Shown: positions 37,949 through 45,802 of the stretch, piece after piece | Numbering within the stretch: position 1 is the first letter of the stretch | Layout: every line of letters begins with the position of its first letter | NCBI RefSeq assembly: GCF_014694315.1 | Contig: NZ_JAAOXD010000001.1 | Span: forward strand, 1 to 64,000 | DNA length: 64,000 nucleotides | Reading direction: 5' to 3' | DNA from: Arthrobacter ipis | Lineage (GTDB): Bacteria > Actinomycetota > Actinomycetes > Actinomycetales > Micrococcaceae | Notes under the pieces: model-generated | Database searches by the model: none | Told to the model about the DNA's origin: nothing | Seen by the model: only the letters and a program-made list of their open reading frames with translations | Position numbers and translations under genes: made by a program

Positions 37949-38839
37949 TCAGGTGTTCAGCGGAGCGGCAGCCACAGTGGGGAGCGTCGGCGTAGCGGAC
38001 CCGCCGACGGGTTCGACCGTGATGCCGAGCGCAGCCGCGGAGCCGATGCCCTTGACCAGGGCCGGCTTCGACAGTGCCTCCGCGTCCATCAGGCCCTGCG
38101 AGACAGGGGTGGAGCCGTCCTTGGGAATCAGCCACATCTGGTAGACCTTGCCCGCGGGCGGCGGCGGCACATCCTTCATCCGCACCACCAGCGCATCATG
38201 CGACTGCGAGATCGAAACGGTCGCCGTCCCTCCGCCATTGACGTCGACAGTCGCCTGCCGCGCGTCCTGTGCCTCGATGACCTGGTTGAAGGGATCGTTC
38301 TGGTTGGCCAGGTAGGCCCCGATGCCAACACCGCCGAGCGCGATCACGGCAGCAGCCGCAACACCGATCAGCCAGTTGCGGAGCCCGGACTTCCGGCGTC
38401 GTACTTCACGGCGTTGGCGTGCAGCGGAAAGTTCGTCGGCAGCGTGGGCGGGCTCGGCCGCAGGCAGGGCAGCCGGCGCGCCGGCGACGGTGGTTTCCGC
38501 CGTAGCGGCATGTGGCCTGGCCTGCCCCTCCGCCGGTGCAGCGGCGGGAAGCTGCGCGACAATCCGGGCGAACAGGTCCGCAGGAGGCTCCTCCTCGGCC
38601 GTAAAGGACAATGCCAGAGTCTCCCTGGCTTGGCGGACGCGGTCGTTGAAGGAGTCGCGTTCAGCCTCGGGAGCGCCGCTGACGTAGGCGTCGATGGCCT
38701 CCCGCTCTGCGTCGCTGATGGCGTCCAGGGCGTAAATTTCGGCCAGTTCCACTGCCCGGCCGGCCGCCAGGTCGGTGGGAATATCGGCAGCAAATGCCCT
38801 GGGCAGCTGGCGACCGCGGGAATCATTCGTATCGGTCAT
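37949..38839 (-). CDS. rskA: Anti-sigma-K factor (RskA-like)
   Basis: A 296-residue membrane anti-sigma factor. The cytosolic N-terminal half (about 1-100; VELAEIYALDAISDAEREAIDAYV) binds the sigma factor, one membrane helix lies at about 155-175 (NWLIGVAAAAVIALGGVGIG) and the extracytoplasmic RskA domain follows. Release of such factors usually depends on regulated proteolysis. The ATG at 38839 is 2 bp after the sigK stop, so the two genes are one unit. No CHCC zinc motif is visible in the N-terminal part. Confidence 0.88.
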   Translation of the reverse strand: MTDTNDSRGRQLPRAFAADIPTDLAAGRAVELAEIYALDAISDAEREAIDAYVSGAPEAERDSFNDRVRQARETLALSFTAEEEPPADLFARIVAQLPAAAPAEGQARPHAATAETTVAGAPAALPAAEPAHAADELSAARQRREVRRRKSGLRNWLIGVAAAAVIALGGVGIGAYLANQNDPFNQVIEAQDARQATVDVNGGGTATVSISQSHDALVVRMKDVPPPPAGKVYQMWLIPKDGSTPVSQGLMDAEALSKPALVKGIGSAAALGITVEPVGGSATPTLPTVAAAPLNT

Positions 38840-38841
38840 TG

Positions 38842-39447
38842 TCAGCTCACCCCCAGGCAGGTCTTGAGTCGGATCAGTCCGTCACGGATGCGGGACTTGA
38901 TGGTCGGAATGGCCGCGTTCAGCTTTTCAGCCACTTCACGGTAGGTGAGGCCGCCGTAGTAGGCGAGCCGCACGGATTCCTGCTGCGTCTCGGTCAGCGT
39001 CTCCAGGCAGCGCACCACGGCTTCGGCCTCCAGCCGGCTGTCCACCTCGTCCGATACCGAGTCATGGTCGATGTCCTGGCTGTTGGCGCCGTACCTGGCC
39101 TCGCGGTCGCTCGCGGACTGCGAGGACCGGACCTTGTCCACGGCCCTGCGGTGCGAAATGGTCATGAGCCAGGCCAGGGGACTTCCGCTCGCGGGATCGA
39201 ACTTGGCGGCGTTTTGCCAAACCTGCAGGAAGACCTCCTGCGTGGTGTCCTCGCTGAGCTCCGGGTCGATCAGCACCCGGCGCGCCATGCCGAACACCCG
39301 CCGCGACGTCAGCCGGTAGAACTCGGCGAAGGACGCCTGGTCGCTGTCGGCAATCCGCCCCAGCAGCTGTGCCAGCTGCTGGTTAAGGTCGACGGCGGTG
39401 CCGGGCGGCGCTGGAGCGTCAAAGTTCGGCGCGTTGGGAGTTTCCAT
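38842..39447 (-). CDS. sigK: ECF sigma factor SigK
   Basis: A 201-residue ECF sigma factor. The region 2 block AEFYRLTSRRVFGMARRVL..ELSEDTTQEVFLQVW, WLMTISHRRAVDKVR, and the region 4 block LTETQQESVRLAYYGGLTYREVAEKLN, followed by TIKSRIRDGLIRLK, match SigK. ATG 39447 gives METPNAPNF and a normal length; TATGCT lies 8 nt before it. An alternative in-frame GTG at 39558 has a perfect AAGGAG 6 nt upstream and would add 37 residues unlike other sigma factors. Controlled by RskA. Confidence 0.9.
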   Translation of the reverse strand: METPNAPNFDAPAPPGTAVDLNQQLAQLLGRIADSDQASFAEFYRLTSRRVFGMARRVLIDPELSEDTTQEVFLQVWQNAAKFDPASGSPLAWLMTISHRRAVDKVRSSQSASDREARYGANSQDIDHDSVSDEVDSRLEAEAVVRCLETLTETQQESVRLAYYGGLTYREVAEKLNAAIPTIKSRIRDGLIRLKTCLGVS

Positions 39448-39613
39448 CACTCTCAAGCATAGGTTGCCTGCCGGCGGGTGCTGCACACGGGTTTGGGCTG
39501 TGGCAGCATCGTGCCGGGCAAAACGGAATGCCGCGTTGCCCGGTTGGAGTGTTTTCACCTGCCGCTCCTTACGCCCTGTGGATGTGCGCGCCCTTTGGGC
39601 GTGCTCAGGAGGG

Positions 39614-39640
39614 ATTCGGTGCGGCACCGGCTTTGGATGG
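39614..39640 (-). promoter_or_regulatory. Candidate SigK-type autoregulatory promoter
   Basis: On the minus strand CCATCC (39640-39635) is followed, after 15 bp, by CCGAAT (39619-39614). These hexamers are the mycobacterial SigK -35 and -10 consensus as I recall it, with a spacer 1-2 bp shorter than I remember. Position: about 160 bp upstream of the sigK ATG. Confidence 0.6.
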
Positions 39641-41294: not shown

Positions 41295-41990
41295 ATGGGA
41301 GTTCGGACAGGTCGCGGTGATGCCCGCCGTATACACGTGGTGATGGCAGCCGTTGGGGCCGTTGCCCTTCTCGGGGGTTGCAGTGTGGGTGTGCCGGATC
41401 CGGCTGCCCCGAGTCACCGGCCTGTCAGCAGCGGACCGGGCACCCCGACCATTACCCCCGGACACGACGCCGGTGCAGTGGCCGCCCGCGACATGCCGTT
41501 CTCGGCAGGGGCCACGCTGGCACATGGGGTTCCCGTCGGGCTGTCGGAGGACCTGGCCGAAGCGCCGCAATGGAAACAGGTGGTCAGTAACGCGGGTGGC
41601 GCGAGCCGCTATCAAAAATCCGACGGCTGCCAGGTGGCGGCCGAGGTGCGCCAGGACCAGTGGCCCCTGGTGGCGGCTGATGACAGGGAATCGACGGCGG
41701 CGCTGTTTGCCTATCTGGACCCCACTGTCCTGCCCGCCTATTTGAAGCCGGCATCGCTGCGGTGGGGCGGTGAGCAAGGCAAACCTGGGCCGGCCGTGGA
41801 TGTACTGGTTCTGGAACGTGCCGCCAAGCCAGCAGGTCAGAAAGCCGGGAAGGCCACGGCGGTGCTGGCCCGGGTTTTCGGTACGGCCGGCTCGTCTGTC
41901 TATGTGTCGGCGTCGTGCCCGACGGCGGCGGCGCTCGCCGCCGCCCGGGCAGACATTAGTCAGTGGCTGACGGTGGTTCCGCCCGGCTGA
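41295..41990 (+). CDS. Putative secreted lipoprotein of unknown function
   Basis: A 231-residue protein with a basic start, a hydrophobic stretch and the lipobox VALLGGC, so it is probably lipid-anchored. Mature sequence is Pro/Ser/Thr-rich at first and then a compact domain with two cysteines (DGCQVAAEV and SASCPTAAA) that could form a disulfide. I do not recognise the family. The 3' end overlaps the convergent doxX-like gene by 31 bp. A later in-frame ATG (41343) directly before the hydrophobic segment is an alternative start. Confidence 0.75.
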   Translation: MGVRTGRGDARRIHVVMAAVGAVALLGGCSVGVPDPAAPSHRPVSSGPGTPTITPGHDAGAVAARDMPFSAGATLAHGVPVGLSEDLAEAPQWKQVVSNAGGASRYQKSDGCQVAAEVRQDQWPLVAADDRESTAALFAYLDPTVLPAYLKPASLRWGGEQGKPGPAVDVLVLERAAKPAGQKAGKATAVLARVFGTAGSSVYVSASCPTAAALAAARADISQWLTVVPPG

Positions 41991-42406
41991 TGAGCCGCTG
42001 CGGCGGTGGCTAGCCGGTTGAGGGCCAGCGCACCCACGAACAGGCCGAAGTCGCGCAGGGCGACGTCGTAATAGGCCCCGAGGATGAGCAGGTTCACAAT
42101 GATCCCCAGGAGCCAGGCAGCCACCACATGCGAACCGATCCGCGGCCGGAGGGCTACCAGGATTCCCGCAATTATCTCGACGACGCCGACGGCGTACATC
42201 ACCGTCTGCGCCGGCAAGTGCAAGGTATCCGGAACCACCGGTGCGAGGTAGCCGGTCCAGTCGGTCAGGAGGTTGGTGAACTTGTCCAGGCCGAACAGGA
42301 TGGGCGCGACGGTGAACGCGGTGCGCAGTAGCAGGAACGCCTGGCGGGCCGGATCCGCCGCGAGCGTTCGCGGGTTTGCAGACTCCTTCAGTGCCGTAGA
42401 TTTCAT
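41960..42406 (-). CDS. DoxX-like membrane protein
   Basis: A 148-residue protein with about four membrane helices and DoxX-type features (LLRTAFTVAPILFGLDKFTN, a Gly/Val-rich second helix). DoxX relatives take part in thiol and redox stress handling in mycobacteria and in sulfur metabolism elsewhere; the function here is inferred. AAAGGAG lies 6 nt before the ATG. The promoter (TTGCTA-N18-TAAAAT) is covered by the operator at 42418-42446. It is divergent from the Cys-rich regulator and overlaps the lipoprotein gene at its 3' end. Confidence 0.82.
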   Translation of the reverse strand: MKSTALKESANPRTLAADPARQAFLLLRTAFTVAPILFGLDKFTNLLTDWTGYLAPVVPDTLHLPAQTVMYAVGVVEIIAGILVALRPRIGSHVVAAWLLGIIVNLLILGAYYDVALRDFGLFVGALALNRLATAAAAHQPGGTTVSH

Positions 42407-42417
42407 GGCGAACTCCT

Positions 42418-42446
42418 TTCTAAAAGTAGGTAGCTTGATTTTAGAA
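42418..42446. promoter_or_regulatory. Operator O1 over the doxX-like promoter
   Basis: TTCTAAAA (42418-42425), 13 bp, then TTTTAGAA (42439-42446): a perfect 8-bp inverted repeat. It overlaps the minus-strand -10 TAAAAT (42443-42438) and reaches the SD, as a repressor site would. Confidence 0.8.
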
Positions 42447-42467
42447 CCATCATCCCTTCTTTAGCAA
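42438..42467 (-). promoter_or_regulatory. Promoter of the doxX-like gene
   Basis: -35 TTGCTA (42467-42462), 18-bp spacer, -10 TAAAAT (42443-42438) on the minus strand. The predicted start lies about 25 nt before the ATG. Confidence 0.7.
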
Positions 42468-42485
42468 CGGATCTTGATTTTAGAG
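42457..42485. promoter_or_regulatory. Operator O2, half-degenerate, at the regulator's own promoter
   Basis: TTCTTTAG-N13-TTTTAGAG with the same 29-bp geometry as O1; only the right arm is well kept. CTTGATTTTAGA is an exact 12-bp direct repeat of 42434-42445. O2 ends just before the regulator's -10 (TACGCT). Confidence 0.6.
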
Positions 42486-42486
42486 T

Positions 42487-42492
42487 TACGCT
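42487..42492 (+). promoter_or_regulatory. Putative -10 element (TACGCT), leaderless geometry
   Basis: TACGCT, then GGATCC, then ATG 42499 of the regulator gene. Confidence 0.5.
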
Positions 42493-42498
42493 GGATCC

Positions 42499-43188
42499 AT
42501 GAGCCGCCCAACTGAGCACCGCGAATCCAAGACCGCTCTTCCGTGGACCGGCCGCCTGGCAGCCCTGGCCTCGCTGGGCGACGCCAGCCGGCGGCGCCTT
42601 TTTGAGTACGTCGCAGGCCAGCCGTCGGCGGTGGGGCGGGATGACGCTGCGGCCGCGCTGGGCATGCCCAGGTCTACGGCGTCCTTCCATCTGGACAGGC
42701 TGGTCCGCGACGGATTGCTCGCCGTCGAGTTCCGCAAGCTCGGCGAAAAGGCCGGCCCGGGGTCGGGCCGTCCGGCGAAGCTGTACCGCCCGGCGCTGGA
42801 AGAAGTGGGTGCGTCGGTACCGGACCGGAGCTACGACCTGGCCGGAGAGCTGATGGCCACCGCGATTGAATCCTCCATGGCCGCCGGGGGAGGGGTGCGC
42901 GAGGCACTGGCTGACGCGTCCTACTCCCGGGGCCGCGCACTGGGCGGTAACGGATCATCCCTGGATGAAGTGCTCGGGAGCATTGGCTACATGCCCGAAC
43001 AGGACACCGAGGGCGGCACCATCCTGATGAACTGCCCCTTCCATCGGCTCGCGGACGGGCACGCGGACGTGGTGTGTGCCATGAACGGAGCGTTTTTGAG
43101 TGGCGCCGCCGCTGCCTGCGGGGTGCCGGAGGAGAAAGTGGTGGAAGACAGGACGGCCGGGCGCTGCTGCGCCAGGATCAGGCCCTGA
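42499..43188 (+). CDS. HTH regulator with C-terminal cysteine cluster (SufR-like)
   Basis: A 229-residue regulator: an ArsR/DeoR-type winged helix at about 15-95 (LASLGDASRRRLFEYV, PRSTASFHLDRLVRDGLL) and a C-terminal domain resembling COG2345/SufR repressors. It carries C179 (NCPFHRLA), C193 (VVCAMN), C207 (AACGV) and C223-C224 (GRCCARI), which could bind an Fe-S cluster or a metal. It sits between the doxX-like gene and a cysteine desulfurase and is the best candidate ligand-responsive repressor for the TTCTAAAA operators nearby. Confidence 0.8.
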   Translation: MSRPTEHRESKTALPWTGRLAALASLGDASRRRLFEYVAGQPSAVGRDDAAAALGMPRSTASFHLDRLVRDGLLAVEFRKLGEKAGPGSGRPAKLYRPALEEVGASVPDRSYDLAGELMATAIESSMAAGGGVREALADASYSRGRALGGNGSSLDEVLGSIGYMPEQDTEGGTILMNCPFHRLADGHADVVCAMNGAFLSGAAAACGVPEEKVVEDRTAGRCCARIRP

Positions 43189-43211
43189 GGCGGCTGAAAC
43201 GTGGCGGCGTC

Positions 43212-43217
43212 TAGAAT
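43212..43217 (+). promoter_or_regulatory. Putative -10 element (TAGAAT), leaderless geometry
   Basis: TAGAAT is followed by TTAAGC and GTG 43224 of the cysteine desulfurase gene. No SD is visible. Confidence 0.55.
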
Positions 43218-43223
43218 TTAAGC

Positions 43224-44453
43224 GTGCCTGTTTACCTGGACCATGCCGCCACCACGCCCATCGCAGCCGAAGCCCTGGCTGCACTGACGCGCGAGCTGTC
43301 CCGGACCGGGAACCCCTCGTCCCTCCATGGCTCCGGCCGCCGGGCGAGACGCTCCGTGGAGGACGCGCGGGAAACCCTTGCCTCCGCGGCAGGCGCCCAT
43401 CCCTCGGAGGTCATCTTCACCTCGGGCGGCACCGAAGCGGACAACTTGGCTGTCAAAGGCCTGTATTGGTCCCGGCTGGCGGAAGACCCACGCCGGCGCC
43501 GGATCCTGTGCTCCGCCGTCGAGCACCATGCCGTGCTGGACACCGTGGAGTGGCTCGAGCGTCACGAAGGTGCGGAAGTGTCCTGGCTGCCCGTCAGCCA
43601 TGACGGCGTGCTGGACCTCGAAGCGCTGCAGGCAGAACTCGCGCGTGACCCCGAGTCCATTGCCTTGGTGACGGTCATGTGGGCCAACAACGAGGTGGGC
43701 AGCATCCAGCCCGTCCATCGGGTGGTGGAGCTCGCGCACGCCGCTGGCGTCCCGGTGCATTCGGACGCGGTGCAGGCGTTCGGCTCTGTCCCGGTGGATT
43801 ACCGGGCCTCCGGGCTGGATGCCATGTCCATCTCAGGCCACAAGATTGGCGGGCCGGTCGGCGTCGGTGCCCTCATCTTGGGGAGGTCGGTGAAGCTCAC
43901 GCCGGTACAGCACGGCGGCGGCCAGGAGCGCGACGTCCGCTCGGGGACGCTGGACACGGCGTCCATCGCGGCCTTCGCCGCCGCAGCCGACTCCGCAGTG
44001 AGGAACCTCGACGCCGAGGCAGGGAGGATTTCCCGGCTGCGGGACCGTCTGATCGCGGGAGTCCGTGACGCGGTTCCGGCGGCGGTGCTGCGCGGGCCGG
44101 CGGGCGACGGGCGGCTGCCCGGCAATGCCCATTTCACCTTTCCCGGCTGCGAGGGTGACTCCCTGCTGTTCCTCCTGGACCTCGCCGGCGTCGAATCGTC
44201 CACCGGCTCCGCGTGCACGGCAGGTGTTCCGCGTCCGTCGCATGTCCTCCTTGCCATGGGCCTGGACGAAGAAACGGCGCGCGGTGCACAGCGCTTCACC
44301 CTGGGGCATCCTTCAGCGGAAGCGGACGTCGACGCACTCCTCGCGGCCTTGCCCGGCGCTTACGCCCGGGCGCGGCAGGCCGGAATGGCCGGTCATGAAT
44401 CCTCCATTCAGACGGCGGCCACCGTTGCCCGGCAGGGTTCGGGCATCAGCTGA
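43224..44453 (+). CDS. Cysteine desulfurase (IscS/NifS family)
   Basis: A PLP enzyme of 409 residues that transfers cysteine sulfur to acceptors such as MnmA. The N-terminus YLDHAATTPIAAEAL is typical, the PLP lysine is K207 in SGHKIGGPVGVG and the persulfide cysteine C331 in SSTGSACTAG. It is the single-cysteine class I type, and mnmA 1.4 kb downstream is a likely recipient. GTG start with leaderless geometry. ATCAGCTG, spanning the stop, is repeated 15 bp further on (44460). Confidence 0.92.
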   Translation: MPVYLDHAATTPIAAEALAALTRELSRTGNPSSLHGSGRRARRSVEDARETLASAAGAHPSEVIFTSGGTEADNLAVKGLYWSRLAEDPRRRRILCSAVEHHAVLDTVEWLERHEGAEVSWLPVSHDGVLDLEALQAELARDPESIALVTVMWANNEVGSIQPVHRVVELAHAAGVPVHSDAVQAFGSVPVDYRASGLDAMSISGHKIGGPVGVGALILGRSVKLTPVQHGGGQERDVRSGTLDTASIAAFAAAADSAVRNLDAEAGRISRLRDRLIAGVRDAVPAAVLRGPAGDGRLPGNAHFTFPGCEGDSLLFLLDLAGVESSTGSACTAGVPRPSHVLLAMGLDEETARGAQRFTLGHPSAEADVDALLAALPGAYARARQAGMAGHESSIQTAATVARQGSGIS

Positions 44454-44460
44454 TCCGGTA

Positions 44461-45717
44461 TCAGCTGGCCTCCGGCACCAACTGGTCGAGCGGAACCGTC
44501 TCATCGGCCAGCCGCTCGGCAGGCACCTCGGTCCGGCCGTTGATGAGCGCCTTGATGGTCTTCTGTGCACTTGGCTTGACGGACCTCGGCCAATTAACGC
44601 TCATGCCGGCCACGACCCGCCCGTCCTGCTGCCAGAACGCCACGAACTCCTTGCTGTCCAGCGAGCCGCGGATGACCGGAACCGCCTTTGCTGCGAGCGA
44701 CGGGAACCCCGAGTACTCCATGCTGACGTCGAACTGGTCGGTGTAGAAGTAGGGGACCGTGTCCAGGGCAACGTCCTGGCCCAGCATGGCCCGGGCCGCC
44801 ACCTTGCCGCCGTTGAGCGCGTTGGACCAGTGTTCGCTGCGGTGGTGCTCGCCGGTGAATGGATGCAGCGCATTGGCGGCGTCGCCGGCGGCAAAAATAT
44901 CCGGGGCACTGGTCCGCAGTGAAGCGTCCGTGAGGATACCGTTGCGGACCTCCAGCCCGGCCGACGTGGCGAGTGCTGTTTCCGGTACCACTCCCACGGC
45001 GATCACCACGATGTCCGCGGGCAGGAGTTCGCCGGCGTCGGTCAGCACGCCCGTCACCCGTCCGTTTTGTCCGGTGATTTCCTTGGCGGAGGCGGGTAGC
45101 CGGAAGCGGACTCCGTTGTCCTCGTGCAGGGCACGGAAAAAGCTGCCCAGCTCCGGGCCGATCGCCGCGGCCAGCGGGATATCCTCAAGCCCGAGCAGTG
45201 TGACCTGGTTGCCGTAGGTGCTTGCCGCCGCGGCCAGTTCCATCCCGATCCAGCCGGAACCGATGAGCACAACGTTCCGTCCACCTGACGGCAGCTGTTC
45301 CCGCAGGCGGCGGCTGTCATCGAGCGTGCGGAAGGTGGTGACGCCGTCCAGTTCCGCGCCGTTCAGCGGCAGCGCCCGGGGCTTTGCGCCGGGCGCCAGC
45401 AGCAGTGCCCCGTATCCTTGGATTGTTCCGTCGGCGAAGCGGACGGTGTGGGCTGCCGGATCAACCGATGCCACAGGGTTGCCCAGCCTGAGGCTGACCT
45501 TGTTGTCCGCGTACCAGCCCTCCGGTGCGACCTCGACGGCGTCCTCCCCGGCTTTGCCGAGCAGGTATTCCTTGGAGAGTGGCGGCCGAAGATAGGGCCG
45601 GTGCGGCTCGGTCCCTGCGATGGTGATGTTCCCGGCGTACCCTTCGGCGCGCAGGGTGCGGGCCGCCGTCGCTCCGGCCAGTCCGGCGCCCACGATGATG
45701 ATGCTTTCAGGGTTCAT
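44461..45717 (-). CDS. FAD-dependent NAD(P)H oxidoreductase (ferredoxin reductase-like)
   Basis: A 418-residue two-domain Rossmann flavoprotein: FAD site IIVGAGLAGATAARTL near the start, NAD(P) site VLIGSGWIGMELAAAAS (about 150-165), second FAD motif DIFAAGDAAN (about 280) and a C-terminal reductase domain. It resembles rubredoxin/ferredoxin reductases of oxygenase systems, but no ferredoxin or oxygenase gene lies nearby. Its promoter is TTGACG-N17-TAAAGT and operator O3 covers the -10, so it probably belongs to the same regulon as the doxX-like gene. It converges on the desulfurase gene with a 7-bp gap. Confidence 0.87.
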   Translation of the reverse strand: MNPESIIIVGAGLAGATAARTLRAEGYAGNITIAGTEPHRPYLRPPLSKEYLLGKAGEDAVEVAPEGWYADNKVSLRLGNPVASVDPAAHTVRFADGTIQGYGALLLAPGAKPRALPLNGAELDGVTTFRTLDDSRRLREQLPSGGRNVVLIGSGWIGMELAAAASTYGNQVTLLGLEDIPLAAAIGPELGSFFRALHEDNGVRFRLPASAKEITGQNGRVTGVLTDAGELLPADIVVIAVGVVPETALATSAGLEVRNGILTDASLRTSAPDIFAAGDAANALHPFTGEHHRSEHWSNALNGGKVAARAMLGQDVALDTVPYFYTDQFDVSMEYSGFPSLAAKAVPVIRGSLDSKEFVAFWQQDGRVVAGMSVNWPRSVKPSAQKTIKALINGRTEVPAERLADETVPLDQLVPEAS

Positions 45718-45753
45718 GGCTACTCGATTCGCCCGGCAGGCCAGTGGCCCACA

Positions 45754-45782
45754 TTCTAAAAATGGTACTCGTGACTTTAGAA
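45754..45782. promoter_or_regulatory. Operator O3 at the FAD oxidoreductase promoter
   Basis: TTCTAAAA (45754-45761), 13 bp, CTTTAGAA (45775-45782): the same 29-bp layout as O1 with one mismatch. The right arm overlaps the minus-strand -10. Confidence 0.8.
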
Positions 45783-45802
45783 GGGCGGGCTGGAACCGTC
45801 AA
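45774..45802 (-). promoter_or_regulatory. Promoter of the FAD oxidoreductase gene
   Basis: -35 TTGACG (45802-45797), 17-bp spacer, -10 TAAAGT (45779-45774). The leader is about 50 nt. Confidence 0.75.

Follow-up and report, generated by a model that had tools for sequence, protein, structure and literature searches.

A palindrome shared by promoters at a SufR-like regulator locus of Arthrobacter ipis, very probably the operator of a small regulon

Introduction

Does a palindrome shared by the promoters of a doxX-like gene and a flavin adenine dinucleotide (FAD) oxidoreductase gene serve as the operator of the helix-turn-helix (HTH) regulator encoded between them? The question arises at a locus of Arthrobacter ipis (genome 4.5 Mb), in a stretch of 64,000 nucleotides of NZ_JAAOXD010000001.1, called the window here and numbered from its first letter. 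A preliminary description of this DNA had proposed a shared 29-base operator that marks a small redox/sulfur regulon and is bound by the linked regulator. From comparisons of the site, its target genes and the regulator, we find that the 29-base palindrome is very probably the binding site of this regulator. The comparisons support a small predicted regulon that comprises doxX and the FAD oxidoreductase gene and probably includes the promoter of the regulator itself. The features of the locus are as follows.

41960..42406, minus strand: DoxX-like membrane protein, 148 amino acids (PF07681, 22.1 bits, cut-off 23.6)
42418..42446: putative operator O1, TTCTAAAA-N13-TTTTAGAA, 11 bp upstream of the doxX-like start codon, 0 mismatches
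42438..42443, minus strand: predicted −10 TAAAAT of doxX, inside O1, with a weak −35 TTGCTA at 42462-42467
42457..42485: putative operator O2 at the regulator's own promoter, right half near intact and left half degenerate, 4/16 mismatches
42481..42486, plus strand: possible regulator −10 TAGAGT, inside and just past O2, chosen by eye with no tool call
42499..43188, plus strand: regulator, 229 amino acids, with an N-terminal winged HTH (HTH_20) and a SufR-like C-terminal cysteine domain
44461..45717, minus strand: FAD oxidoreductase of the ferredoxin/putidaredoxin reductase type (Pyr_redox_2, 216.2 bits, and Reductase_C, 50.7 bits, both above cut-off)
45754..45782: putative operator of the FAD oxidoreductase gene, 36 bp upstream of the start codon, 1 mismatch
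45774..45779, minus strand: predicted −10 TAAAGT of the FAD gene, inside its putative operator, with a −35 TTGACG at 45797-45802

Results

Two palindromes with 0 and 1 mismatch stand where the preliminary description placed them, compared with an expected 0.01 matches to TTCTAAAA-N13-TTTTAGAA in the window, and its claim that they cover the −10 elements of the doxX-like and FAD genes agrees with predicted −10 hexamers inside both. Between positions 41900 and 46000 there are 2 promoter-like sites, against a shuffle mean of 0.3. The half-degenerate third copy was also recovered: O2 shares the 12 bases CTTGATTTTAGA exactly with O1, with one mismatch in its right half. The whole genome contains three sites with up to 3 mismatches, each having 0 or 1, namely the two in the window and an unlinked site (G000:C12:132545-132573) that lies 60 bp before the gene for a 158-amino-acid membrane protein, a third candidate target. 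A backward control pattern gave 3 matches with up to 3 mismatches in the same genome, but 0 with up to 2; because this control equals the real count at 3 mismatches and falls to zero at 2, it is the close matches, not the count at up to 3 mismatches, that carry weight.

A search with the regulator yielded 59 homologous loci, nearly all from Arthrobacter or near relatives and totalling 611,617 bp. Here we found 31 perfect sites, 59 with up to 1 mismatch and 84 with up to 2, where 200 shuffled-arm controls gave means of 0, 0 and 0.03 at 0, 1 and 2 mismatches and a maximum of 2 at 2 mismatches; at 3 mismatches there were 96 real sites against a control mean of 0.33. No other spacer between N8 and N18 gives a site with up to 1 mismatch, and N15 alone gives a single site with up to 2. 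The genome scan, the shuffled-arm controls and the class scan given below all speak against a motif that is frequent or randomly placed. In alignments of the window and those of the 59 loci that have a site with up to 3 mismatches at the expected place (48 doxX-side and 50 FAD-side rows), information content reaches 1.87 and 1.75 bits per base in the arms, compared with 1.13 and 1.05 in the spacers and 0.16-0.70 in the flanks. Conservation extends to the −35 of the FAD promoter, which reads CcGTCAAGG on the plus strand. Immediately before the regulator gene, the window that scores best ends in TTTTAGAG, the right half of O2, in 45 of 58 loci, and this end is kept in 9 of the 10 loci without doxX. 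When we asked for one operator at the divergent target and at the own promoter, overlapping the −10, the result was clear at the target, and the own-promoter copy was half degenerate and without a control.

The operator moves with doxX and the FAD gene, being mostly lost with them and kept where they relocate. O1 was scored in 58 of the 59 loci and is present in 46 of the 48 that have doxX beside the regulator, so orthologous promoters do carry the motif; among the 10 without doxX it occurs once (L053, 3 mismatches). The FAD-side site was scored in the 53 loci with mnmA and is found in 48 of 50 with the FAD gene and in none of the 3 that keep mnmA without it. L013 was scored as a miss on this side since its mnmA match is partial, though its site is visible, and L018 stands at 4 mismatches in the per-locus scoring. 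Three loci (L025, L035, L039) have the regulator and doxX without the desulfurase-mnmA neighbourhood and retain the site. In other genera, doxX genes far from the regulator (L170-L174, L177) and FAD genes far from the regulator (L179-L181) keep a nearby upstream site.

The unlinked 158-amino-acid membrane protein shows a weak likeness to DUF1440 and DUF6789, both below cut-off. Its DUF1440-like gene occurs in 16 genomes of the genus, 13 of which have a site with up to 3 mismatches in the 200 bp upstream, and a fourteenth (G031, L101) has a 2-mismatch site slightly farther upstream. In the two genomes where the gene lacks the usual site, a second, diverged copy of the regulator is located about 0.8 kb from the DUF1440-like gene (G014, L235) or about 4 kb from it (G016, L236), and in G016 a FAD gene lies between the two. 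Further sites with up to 2 mismatches (L102, L103, L105, L175, L176, L178) precede no recognised target and may be chance or lineage-specific.

The presence of the site was compared with that of the regulator in 61 genomes of the genus, 120 of the family and 296 of the class. A site with up to 2 mismatches, excluding one recurring chance match, is found in all 51 genus genomes with the regulator (40 + 11). Of the 10 genus genomes without it, six have no site, three have only one identical 29-mer and one (G026) has a site. This recurring 29-mer (2 mismatches; L104 at G022:C1:705550, and also in G032, G033, G047, G059 and G099) is a coincidence that inflates the site counts; in G022 it overlaps the start of an ATP-binding cassette transporter ATPase gene, which we take to be ftsE. 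G026, in which no regulator was found, has its site before folE and a FAD gene, and its regulator may sit in the missing part of the genome, since G026 is only 68% complete. Across the family the site is present in 31 of 39 genomes with the regulator versus 6 of 81 without. Conservation, tracking of the targets and this phyletic match back the earlier proposal that the sites are a shared operator with the linked regulator as its predicted binder.

Beyond the family, a search of the class at E up to 1e-20 found the regulator in 86 of the 296 genomes. We examined the doxX promoters of 22 class loci, leaving out 6 of an original 28 that have no doxX match: 13 contain an exact TTCTA-N20-TAGAA and 19 a copy with up to 1 mismatch, compared with 0.005 and 0.18 in shuffles. 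The inner arm bases covary in several class sites, TTCTAACG occurring with CGTTAGAA and TTCTATAA with TTATAGAA. A second set of 40 regions centred on the regulator (483,157 bp, from the 86 genomes) partly overlaps these loci, and sites away from the regulator lie outside the scan. It holds 17 exact copies of TTCTA-N19/20-TAGAA in 17 of the 40 regions, with about 0.03 expected at 70% GC, and all 17 precede doxX (12), folE (2) or DUF3291 (3). Neighbours of the regulator in these regions include doxX (23), folE (11), FAD (11) and DUF3291 (9), counts that are not a random sample because the regions come mostly from the top of the match list. Example folE and DUF3291 proteins and one doxX protein from the class regions exceed their Pfam cut-offs. 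DoxX-like homologues stand beside the regulator across the class, the one in L262 passing PF07681 (25.1 bits) and the one in L177 having no Pfam match. The regulator, FolE and FAD protein occur together on Nocardioides sp. JS614 pNOCA01, and the regulator, DoxX, FolE and FAD protein on Rhodococcus opacus pLPS8.

Several arrangements were observed around these genes. The folE and FAD genes are adjacent in L183, L239, L251, L252, L255, L257 and L058, with the regulator beside all except L239 (a short stretch); this adjacency suggests a pterin link. The Arthrobacter ipis genome has one folE, at none of its three sites. In other genera (L179, L180, L181, L187, L058 and L061) the FAD gene is followed by pterin-binding (dihydropteroate synthase-like) and RibD_C genes. 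In L275, L277 and L280, which have no doxX in the region, TTCTA-N19-TAGAA lies in the gap from the regulator to the DUF3291 gene that follows it.

The five C-terminal cysteines reported for the regulator are all present (C179, C193, C207, C223 and C224, with an NCPFH motif and a CC pair in the domain), and four of them are invariant. C179 and C193 are found in 59 of the 60 rows of an Arthrobacter-type set (one gap) and C223 and C224 in all 60; among 59 homologues, nearly all from other genera, every one has all four. The fifth, C207, is not conserved (39/60 and 18/59). Aligned by hhalign with the genome's own SufR, the regulator gives a probability of 94 over 201 columns, with C179, C193 and C224 opposite SufR cysteines. 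The SufR homologue of Mycobacterium tuberculosis, Rv1460, binds an iron-sulfur (Fe-S) cluster and requires C203, C216 and C244 (PMC6034842). In common with Synechocystis SufR, Rv1460 and the genome's own SufR, the regulator has an N-terminal HTH, a glycine-rich wing resembling GxGxGRPxK and three matching C-terminal cysteines. The AlphaFold model of the regulator has a mean predicted local distance difference test score of 79.9. Foldseek of this model against the PDB gave no match under E 0.001 (best match 6j05, 92 columns, E 3.7e-3), and the cysteine domain is without a clear structural match because the best matches cover about 90 residues of HTH proteins.

In build the regulator resembles SufR, but its position, targets and operator set it apart, and a separate SufR-type gene adjoins sufB. 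That gene (L218:5099-5953, minus strand, 284 amino acids), named from position and similarity, lies directly upstream of sufB, whereas the regulator is not beside suf genes and none of the three genomic sites is at suf. The regulator also differs in its extra invariant cysteine, which forms the CC pair, and in its targets and operator: the SufR-type operator is CAAC-N6-GTTG, unlike the element conserved here as TTCTAAAA-N13-TTTTAGAA. To ArsR/SmtB repressors it is similar in its HTH domain, and it differs from them in its length of 229 amino acids, with a separate C-terminal cysteine domain, and in not passing the NCBIfam metalloregulator model (25.6 bits, cut-off 55).

Of the two neighbouring targets, the FAD protein has rubredoxin, putidaredoxin and ferredoxin reductases among its nearest solved relatives. 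The DoxX-like protein aligns with the DoxX family, yet scores just below the curated cut-off, and no solved structural relative of it was found by sequence. Elsewhere in the window, at 37949-39627 on the minus strand, a sigma-70/extracytoplasmic-function-type sigma factor gene is followed by an RskA-type anti-sigma-K gene, recorded as a side observation.

Discussion

The sites, their conservation, their tracking with the targets and the regulator, and the cysteine pattern can be read directly from the DNA. They point to a palindrome that acts as the operator of the linked SufR-like repressor, which would block the −10 of its targets, regulate its own gene through O2 and sense its signal most likely through an Fe-S cluster; we give this reading a probability of roughly 0.78. 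The half-sites are 21 or 22 bp apart centre to centre, or two turns, and lie over the −10, which suggests repression by a dimer or a pair of dimers. In the proposed mechanism, a regulator dimer or pair of dimers would occupy a pair of TTCTA half-sites spaced by roughly two turns of the helix and, covering the −10 of doxX and of the FAD gene, would keep RNA polymerase off. It would bind upstream of the unlinked DUF1440-like membrane protein gene as well, and the weaker O2 at its own promoter would provide autoregulation. The C-terminal cysteines would most likely hold an iron-sulfur cluster, whose loss or alteration would weaken DNA binding and turn on a few redox-type genes. A redox signal is plausible because the FAD protein resembles ferredoxin-type reductases and DoxX-like proteins are reported to be raised in oxidative stress (PMC12161575). 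An Fe-S-based signal is the most likely kind since the cysteine pattern is SufR-like.

Several observations weigh against this reading. Binding, repression, the cluster and the signal are all inferred from sequence, and the site counts overstate certainty because related genomes are not independent; Fisher values, which take no account of relatedness, were given no weight. One shuffled-arm control reached 23 sites at 3 mismatches (real count 96), and the partly conserved spacer means that recognition may not be that of a plain palindrome. O2, with 4 mismatches here, has 6 in 30 of 58 loci, and autoregulation leans mainly on one O2 half-site without a shuffle control of its own. The DUF1440-like gene is without the usual site in 2 of 16 genomes (G014, G016). 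Of the 39 family genomes with the regulator, 8 have no N13 site with up to 2 mismatches, at least two of them carrying an N14 version (G078, L134; G098, L122). The Microbacterium homologues L058 and L061 lack the O1-type palindrome and keep the O2-like element alone, and the exact TTCTA-N19/20-TAGAA is missing from 23 of the 40 class regions. Finally, the regulator may activate instead of repress, which is disfavoured because the site overlaps the −10.

The most serious alternative keeps the operator and the regulator, but the cysteines could instead hold zinc or another metal or act as thiol switches, so that a metal, an oxidant or an electrophile would be the signal. The N-terminal domain matches ArsR/SmtB-type HTH families, and the invariant C223-C224 pair is unlike SufR, its second position alone aligning with a SufR cysteine. 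The 201-column SufR alignment, with three cysteines at near-identical spacing, and the metalloregulator score, less than half of the bits needed, speak against this alternative, and we regard a metal or thiol sensor as possible, though doubtful.

Whether the regulon also serves sulfur transfer depends on the cysteine desulfurase and mnmA. The desulfurase gene adjoins the regulator here (35 bp); of the loci scored, 29 have it within 300 bp of the regulator and 23 at a distance above 700 bp, and an opposite-strand EamA transporter gene stands between the two where this was examined (L017, and by eye L030, L049 and L053). No site of its own was found for the desulfurase in this genus, and the FAD-side site is gone from all three loci that keep mnmA without the FAD gene. 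In another genus (L179-L181), the desulfurase and FAD genes diverge with the site in the gap separating them, some 67-77 bp ahead of the desulfurase, which may thus come under joint control there. Judged by the gains and losses of the locus and by these distances, desulfurase and mnmA are neighbours and not members in Arthrobacter, and their membership is unlikely. Of the 'small redox/sulfur regulon' first proposed, the size therefore stands and the redox character is plausible, while the sulfur part is weakly supported, because neither desulfurase nor mnmA tracks the site in the genus.

Somewhat less probable still is that the palindrome belongs to a global regulator encoded elsewhere, with the linked HTH gene a bystander. 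Binding by the linked regulator is itself a deduction, and the FAD and DUF1440-like sites do not adjoin its gene; against this, the site tracks the regulator in the 61 genus genomes and mostly in the 120 family genomes, and class-wide the regulator has these half-sites next to it. We set this explanation aside on the tracking, together with the barely credible one of an RNA hairpin or attenuator. Pairing of the perfect 8-bp arms in RNA is conceivable, but a transcript made from the predicted −10, which falls within the repeat, would contain just part of it; no T-run follows, and the spacer fits DNA phasing, being near-fixed at N13 across the Arthrobacter loci and longer by one base elsewhere.

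An autoregulated repressor with a palindromic operator and a SufR-like sensor is a known kind of system. The regulon and its operator appear new: among the matches listed in a literature search there was no account of this operator or of a regulator for the doxX/FAD/folE set. A far-reaching extension, which we consider a long shot, is a class-wide regulon in which a SufR-like Fe-S sensor would switch on a membrane and pterin redox defence made up of DoxX, FolE (GTP cyclohydrolase I), the FAD reductase and, in some lineages, DUF3291, pterin-binding or DUF1440-like proteins, and which might make and recycle radical-trapping pterins or quinones at the membrane. The idea draws on a parallel in animals, where GTP cyclohydrolase and an AIF-like flavoprotein each form an arm of the suppression of ferroptosis.

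At the strength given above, the finding would join an HTH gene and several targets, all so far without names, in a single regulon that can be tested and that many actinobacteria share. Its regulator would be a second SufR-like protein, with an operator of its own and targets other than suf. The finding would supply a compact promoter predicted to be redox-responsive, and it lets one ask directly which kind of damage or signal is relayed to DoxX, FolE and ferredoxin-type reductases in bacteria.

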